Both the position numbers and the translations under genes were made by a program. A stretch of DNA of 64,000 bases, from assembly GCA_038734275.1 (NCBI GenBank), contig JAVYOO010000001.1, positions 186,001 through 250,000 of the forward strand. The letters are read 5' to 3'. Shown one piece after another: positions 2,257-32,017 of the stretch (the stretch's first letter is position 1; each line of letters starts with the position of its first letter). The notes under the pieces are model-generated. The model was not told the origin of the DNA. It made no database searches and saw only the letters and a program-made list of their open reading frames with translations. Origin of the DNA: Archaeoglobaceae archaeon (GTDB lineage Archaea > Halobacteriota > Archaeoglobi > Archaeoglobales > Archaeoglobaceae).

Positions 2257-2264
2257 TTTATATA
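2257..2264 (+). promoter_or_regulatory. TATA box of the structured RNA
   Basis: TTTATATA lies with its centre about 26 bases before 2287, where the closing stem of the RNA candidate begins. No coding start follows on this strand, which supports a dedicated non-coding transcript. Confidence 0.55.
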
Positions 2265-2286
2265 GTTTGATGATTACAATAATATT

Positions 2287-2410
2287 GCGAGGCAAGATCG
2301 AGTCCGGCAAAAGGCTAAAGAGCTAAGTTAAAAGCTTACCAAACTGGGAAACCAGTTTGGAAGTGCTTTGCGAAGTTCTTTGGTTCGAGCTGGGCTCGAT
2401 GCCAGATCGC
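2287..2410 (+). ncRNA. Structured non-coding RNA of unknown family, about 124 nt
   Basis: The segment folds on paper into a long rod. GCGA (2287-2290) pairs with TCGC (2407-2410), and GGC with GCC. AUCGAGUCCGGC (2296-2307) pairs over 12 positions with GCUGGGCUCGAU (2389-2400), with two G-U pairs. AAAGAGCU pairs with AGUUCUUU, AAGC with GCUU, and the tip CCAAACUGG-GAAA-CCAGUUUGG (2339-2360) is a perfect 9-base-pair hairpin closed by a GNRA tetraloop. A TATA box stands 26 bases upstream and a T-run (2413-2417) just downstream. There is no open reading frame of note. I do not recognise SRP RNA, RNase P, 5S, tRNA or a standard C/D or H/ACA guide. Confidence 0.65.
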
Positions 2411-2434
2411 AGTTTTTAGCCTAAATTAAAAAAA

Positions 2435-2542
2435 TTAAGAACTTTTAGATTTGGACTTCATAGCTCGATAGAGGAAGTAAGCAAGCCCCCCGTAGAGCAC
2501 GAGGAAGCCAAAGATTGCGAAGGCGATTGCTTCAAGCGACAT
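2435..2542 (-). CDS. MetS-like small subunit of the sodium symporter
   Basis: A 35-residue peptide (start MSLEAIAFAIFGFLVLYGG, end KSKSKSS) with one membrane helix followed by a short basic cytoplasmic tail. It overlaps the 3' end of the transporter gene by 11 bases, its ATG lying within the last codons, so translation is coupled. Tiny single-helix partners of this type (MetS, required by the MetP methionine symporter of Corynebacterium) are known downstream of prokaryotic neurotransmitter:sodium symporters. The glycine-glycine step and the N-terminal helix fit that family. Identity rests on length, position and motif. Confidence 0.75.
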   Translation of the reverse strand: MSLEAIAFAIFGFLVLYGGLAYFLYRAMKSKSKSS

Positions 2543-31806: not shown

Positions 31807-32017
31807 GACTCTCATGAAAATGTAATAAGATACAGATTACTAAGGAGAGGCGAGTGAAATGATGCTATAAAAAGACTTGAAGCCTTAAAGAAGGTATTAA
31901 AGTCGTAAAAGCTCTGTATCGGTGTAATTTTCTCATAGGGGCTCATAAGATGGCGATTAAAATAAATGGCTGTGCCCAATACATCAAAAGCCTTTTTGTG
32001 TTCAATTTTATTAATAG
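31807..32017 (+). other. Intergenic stretch with possible decayed coding remnant
   Basis: No intact gene. Two stretches read like broken protein on the plus strand: NDAIKRLEALKKVLKS ending at TAA near 31910, and in another frame EGIKVVKALYRCNFLIGAHK continuing to about 32010. They could join by one frameshift near 31890. It lies immediately 3' of tRNA-Asp, a common integration point, so a leftover of an inserted element is possible. Weak evidence. Confidence 0.25.

Follow-up and report, generated by a model that had tools for sequence, protein, structure and literature searches.

A probable stand-alone gene for a circular RNA, built around a canonical bulge-helix-bulge motif, in Archaeoglobaceae

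The window analyzed here, that is, the whole 64,000-nucleotide stretch of Archaeoglobaceae DNA, carries near its start a structured RNA (2287-2410, plus strand) that is probably a rare case of a stand-alone gene for a circular RNA. As modeled, the base of its rod-like fold is a canonical 3-4-3 bulge-helix-bulge (BHB), the substrate motif of the archaeal tRNA splicing endonuclease, and the mature product is probably an excised, probably circular RNA of 109 nt rather than the 124-nt transcript. What the genomes display directly is the fold with its conservation and covariation, the geometry and stability of the BHB, a conserved promoter and T-run, and genes for the endonuclease EndA and the ligase RtcB. 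We infer transcription, cleavage, and circularization from these features, and consider it likely, with some reserve, that EndA excises positions 2297-2405, that RtcB circularizes them, and that the locus is a stand-alone RNA gene built as a splicing-endonuclease cassette.

A folded rod with its own promoter

A preliminary description of the locus had proposed a structured rod with pairing ends, whose pairing would be very unlikely by chance, and both points hold. Positions 2287-2410 fold with a minimum free energy of −63.9 kcal/mol, compared with a mean of −33.9 (sd 4.0) for shuffled sequences (z −7.6), and none of the 200 shuffles reached the energy of the native sequence. From its base inward, the predicted plus-strand fold consists of the outermost GCGA helix (2287-2290/2407-2410), a central BHB helix of four pairs, GGCA/UGCC (2291-2294/2400-2403), whose 3′ strand UGCC is intact in four of five species, an 11-pair stem (2298-2308/2389-2399), a 12-pair stem with four G-U pairs (2313-2324/2374-2385), an inner stem of 4-5 pairs located inward of the latter, and a 9-pair tip hairpin closed by a GAAA loop (2339-2347/2352-2360). 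The tip hairpin and the length of the 12-pair stem had been described correctly, but that stem had been credited with only two G-U pairs, and the 8-pair stem of the same account extends to 11 pairs in our fold. We take the plus strand as the RNA strand because it folds much better than its complement (−65.5 versus −42.9) and because some G-U pairs are preserved across all five species that carry the RNA.

The promoter proposed for this gene is present and conserved in the relatives. Its TATA box TTTATATA (2257-2264, plus strand) lies about 26 nt upstream of position 2287, and 10 of the 13 positions at 2253-2265 are invariant in the five species. Between the TATA box and the start is a further promoter element, TTTGATGATTAC (2266-2277, plus strand), which is invariant at 12/12 positions in the same species, while its flanks are invariant at only 1/13 and 2/9 positions. 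Within the ten genomes of the genus, TTTGATGATTAC occurs solely at these five loci and in one copy within a gene; the second exact copy in the source genome lies inside a coding gene. With this other copy being intragenic and no other promoter copy in the ten genomes, a role as a regulon element was rejected. As TTTGATGATTAC is also not seen at the tRNA promoters of the source genome, it looks like a factor-binding site that may serve a dedicated factor; an operator or an initially melted region are possible functions. The element is unchanged even in the copy in which TATA box and rod have decayed. At the other end of the gene, the predicted trailer (2406-2417, plus strand) comprises AUCGCAG and a run of five T residues (2413-2417), a likely terminator that matches the downstream T-run noted before; a T5 run comes after the stem in each of the five species.

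In agreement with the initial impression that the RNA fits no described class, no Rfam family reached its gathering threshold. The weak sub-threshold matches (mir-488) were confined to the minus strand and were set aside as hairpin coincidences. A protein-coding origin was likewise rejected, since the alignment has gaps that are one or three bases long and each species has its reading frames broken in a different way.

The bulge-helix-bulge motif and the predicted processing

The rod base reads 5′ GCGA-GGCA-AGA-UCGAG ... CUCGA-UGCC-AGA-UCGC 3′, with 3-nt bulges on opposite strands, a 4-pair helix between them, and the polarity of archaeal introns. Two side bulges near the base, AAG and AGA, had been pointed out previously as possible protein sites. 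There are indeed two bulges, but in the best register both are AGA (2295-2297 and 2404-2406, plus strand), each invariant in the five species and separated from the other by four pairs; as for the protein, they form the two halves of a canonical BHB, the site of the splicing endonuclease. Such a motif is defined by a 4-pair helix flanked by a pair of 3-nt bulges (PMC6379350; PMC7714728), and the bulges, central helix, flanking helices, and polarity found here all agree with this substrate geometry, which is intact in four of the five species.

The motif energy of the rod (−29.7) comes close to those of the 16S (−35.6) and 23S (−39.1) motifs of the same genome and surpasses that of its tRNA-Tyr motif (−16.9). 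We judged the chance level from the 64-kb window and from random sequences: with both strands of the window considered, the next-best BHB candidate scored −13.0, and the best one in 30 random 64-kb strands −18.6. Applied to the rRNA operon of the source genome, a strict BHB search recovered the 16S motif (bulges AGA/AAA) and the 23S motif (AAA/AAG). The bulges of the rod (AGA/AGA) and of the tRNA-Tyr intron (AGU/AGA) agree with these rRNA motifs.

The source genome encodes RtcB ligase and a single protein matching the tRNA_int_endo domain, an EndA of 304 aa, which is closest to the Archaeoglobus fulgidus enzyme among PDB entries (2gjw, 1r0v; E about 1e-94). Homodimeric EndA of the A. fulgidus kind prefers the canonical BHB, a preference that fits the canonical motif at the rod base. 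Relaxed motifs are efficiently removed by only two other EndA types (PMC6379350).

In the proposed pathway, a transcript would run from 2287 to about 2417, and its leader and trailer would base-pair to one another as well as to the two ends of the body, thereby forming the canonical BHB. The leader, or 5′ exon, GCGAGGCAAG (2287-2296, plus strand) comprises the GCGA strand of the outer helix, GGCA, and the first two nucleotides of bulge 1, as delimited by the fold, the alignment, and the BHB rule for the cut site. EndA cleavage falls between the second and third bases of a BHB bulge; both AGA bulges would thus be cut, after 2296 and after 2405, to free nucleotides 2297-2405. This predicted 109-nt RNA (plus strand), supported by fold and covariation, holds the 11-, 12-, and 9-pair stems. 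Joining of its ends by RtcB would yield a circular rod capped by the 7-nt loop UGCCAGA and, opposite it, by GAAA, and with a predicted junction (2405 to 2297) at which ...GATGCCAG is followed by ATCGAGTC.... Exon joining would leave a by-product, a scrap hairpin of roughly 22 nt. Leader and trailer, or 3′ exon, are just long enough for the BHB and would be present mainly to build it.

As for the function of the circle, we can only guess at a very stable double-helical scaffold or a decoy for an RNA-binding protein, since the unpaired stretches inside the rod vary, and none is conserved to a degree that would suggest a guide. More tentatively than the processing itself, and with doubts that slightly outweigh our confidence, we suggest a dedicated circular-RNA gene, in which a promoter and an EndA cassette almost devoid of exons deliver a body that is selected as a covalently closed rod and serves hot-spring Archaeoglobi as a long-lived RNA with a regulatory or structural role.

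Distribution, covariation, and genomic neighborhood

DNA and covariance searches found the RNA in five species of a single Archaeoglobaceae genus (WYZ-LMO2), namely the source genome, where it is single-copy, and the metagenome-assembled genomes DJKA128_NP-F35_bin.22 (G001), SKYB18 (G003), JZ-3_D_bin_138 (G004), and WYZ-LMO2 (G007). Even with lax filters, no convincing copy was obtained from the remaining five genomes of the genus, of which two are 98-99% complete. Nor did a convincing one emerge from the other 285 genomes in the phylum sample (295 in total), in which two marginal matches had E values of 0.125 and 0.75, and no copies were found in viral, phage, and plasmid collections.

Covariation in relatives had been suggested as a check of the fold, and compensatory double changes indeed occur at 6 of the 46 pairs in an alignment of five sequences, two of which are nearly identical; only 4 of 500 shuffles reach that number. 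Across these five sequences, 94.3% of pair cells are standard, compared with 23-46% once the partners are slid by 1-3 columns. The BHB helices show no compensatory change in the five sequences, and their pairs hardly vary. In the BHB arms, 29/36 positions are invariant (14/17 and 15/19), compared with 43/88 in the inner rod and 1/13 to 4/20 in the flanks. The predicted excised RNA measures 109 nt in the source genome, 108 nt in SKYB18, and 107 nt in the WYZ-LMO2 genome.

Three of the four distinct sequences, which cover four species, fold with z scores of −7.3 to −11.1; the copy in the WYZ-LMO2 genome has a weak fold (−37.7 kcal/mol, z −2.6). This copy no longer forms two of the four pairs in the central BHB helix and has an altered TATA box, and it retains both AGA bulges. 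Judging from these losses and the weak rod, the gene looks decayed or dispensable in this species.

In the source genome, the RNA is flanked on one side by the peroxiredoxin-desulfoferrodoxin-rubrerythrin genes and on the other by a convergent gene for an SNF-type transporter with a small partner of 35 aa, a setting that says little about its function. The link to an oxidative-stress operon that had been drawn from this position is weakened, because the RNA of SKYB18 keeps its position by the peroxiredoxin gene although neither a desulfoferrodoxin nor a rubrerythrin gene accompanies it there. In a congener that lacks the RNA (locus L052, G009), the cluster layout differs, with a ferritin-like gene between the peroxiredoxin and desulfoferrodoxin genes. 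On the other side, the 35-aa ORF MSLEAIAFAIFGFLVLYGGLAYFLYRAMKSKSKSS (2435-2542, minus strand) is located directly downstream of the SNF transporter gene and presumably encodes the small, MetS-like membrane partner of this transporter. In two species (L045/L047 in G001; L046 in G007), a stop or frameshift breaks up the transporter match, reflecting a pseudogene or an assembly error. We also observed a low-scoring partial tRNA-Thr(CGU)-like gene (L089, G000:C1:342093-342141), present in the genome in addition to a normal tRNA-Thr(CGU) and perhaps derived from an integrated element.

Alternative readings and known systems

The fold and the promoter do not in themselves need cleavage, and in the WYZ-LMO2 genome both AGA bulges persist although the central helix is broken, as might be the case if a linear structured RNA of ~124-130 nt acted as such, for example in protein binding or regulation, and the BHB geometry were an uncut protein site or a coincidence. 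We regard this as unlikely, since the exact 3-4-3 geometry has the right polarity and an energy comparable to those of true substrates, far from chance, its purine-rich bulges resemble the genome's own substrates, and a canonical BHB left uncut in the presence of EndA would be surprising. Less probable still is a relic of a tRNA or rRNA BHB intron that has lost its host gene, a free intron with a functionless excised RNA. Confinement to one clade and decay in one species would suit such a relic, and the joined exons would give an anticodon-arm-like structure with a 5-pair stem and a 7-nt loop (GGCAAGA); however, any BHB yields this shape, and U33 is missing. Moreover, the element is closely flanked by its own conserved promoter and T-run, adjoins no tRNA half (the sole tRNA in the window is a tRNA-Asp at 32017), and has compensatory changes that keep the inner rod paired, and its joined exons have no match in the rRNA operon.

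We see very little room for a known class in disguise, even though box C/D, H/ACA, and permuted SRP RNAs occur in BHB introns or permuted genes (PMC7714728; PMC4731332). The box C motif RUGAUGA is found in none of the five copies and CUGA only in that of the WYZ-LMO2 genome. An H/ACA RNA would have an ANA box at 14-16 nt from its pseudouridylation pocket and a k-turn or k-loop above the latter; by eye, there is no such pocket or k-turn here, and the internal loops are too small and not conserved. Binding of L7Ae, for which a comparison with L7Ae-bound RNAs was advised at the outset, is not supported either, with no C/D boxes and, by eye, no k-turn GA pairs at the loops. A permuted SRP RNA was rejected on distribution: absence from near-complete congeners means that this is not a universal RNA such as SRP RNA, which occurs once per genome. 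No match to the SRP model arose in the Rfam comparison. Finally, a strong inverted repeat within an intergenic gap might be a DNA-level feature, such as a mobile element or MITE-like hairpin, but this is highly improbable for a single-copy sequence missing from the phage, plasmid, and viral collections, with a far better fold on the plus strand, conserved G-U pairs, and a promoter and T-run in place.

For the predicted circular RNA, the closest precedent by analogy is the circular permuted SRP RNA of Thermoproteus tenax, a stand-alone ncRNA gene whose TATA box likewise lies 26 nt upstream and whose short leader and trailer form a BHB (PMC4731332). EndA cutting and the circle have been demonstrated in T. 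tenax, where the universal SRP RNA in permuted form makes up the body, whereas here cleavage is predicted and the body is a short rod of no known family, limited to one genus. A BHB outside tRNA and rRNA is also shared with the 5′ UTR intron of Haloferax volcanii HVO_1309 (PMC7714728); that intron, 46 nt long and excised and circular, lies within an mRNA leader, whereas the RNA described here has a gene, promoter, and T-run to itself, and its excision is predicted. Archaeal pre-16S and pre-23S rRNA processing stems likewise contain a canonical BHB within long helices formed by their paired flanks, with the same purine-rich bulges in this genome, but they bracket 1.5-3 kb of rRNA instead of one 109-nt rod. 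The tRNA-Trp intron with its box C/D sRNA, a functional RNA that is set free as a circular BHB intron, can be likened to the predicted circle; unlike it, the RNA here has neither a host tRNA nor C/D boxes.

A literature search, with most subscription papers outside its scope, found no report of a comparable gene dedicated to a small circular RNA, and in the literature surveyed very few RNAs beyond tRNA, rRNA, and the one permuted SRP RNA are reported as products of the archaeal splicing machinery. The locus offers a compact natural cassette suited to the well-studied A. fulgidus EndA, and its combination of promoter, BHB arms, and T-run provides a search rule for further such genes. If our reading is true, the tRNA splicing pathway would be used on purpose in these archaea to make circular RNAs.
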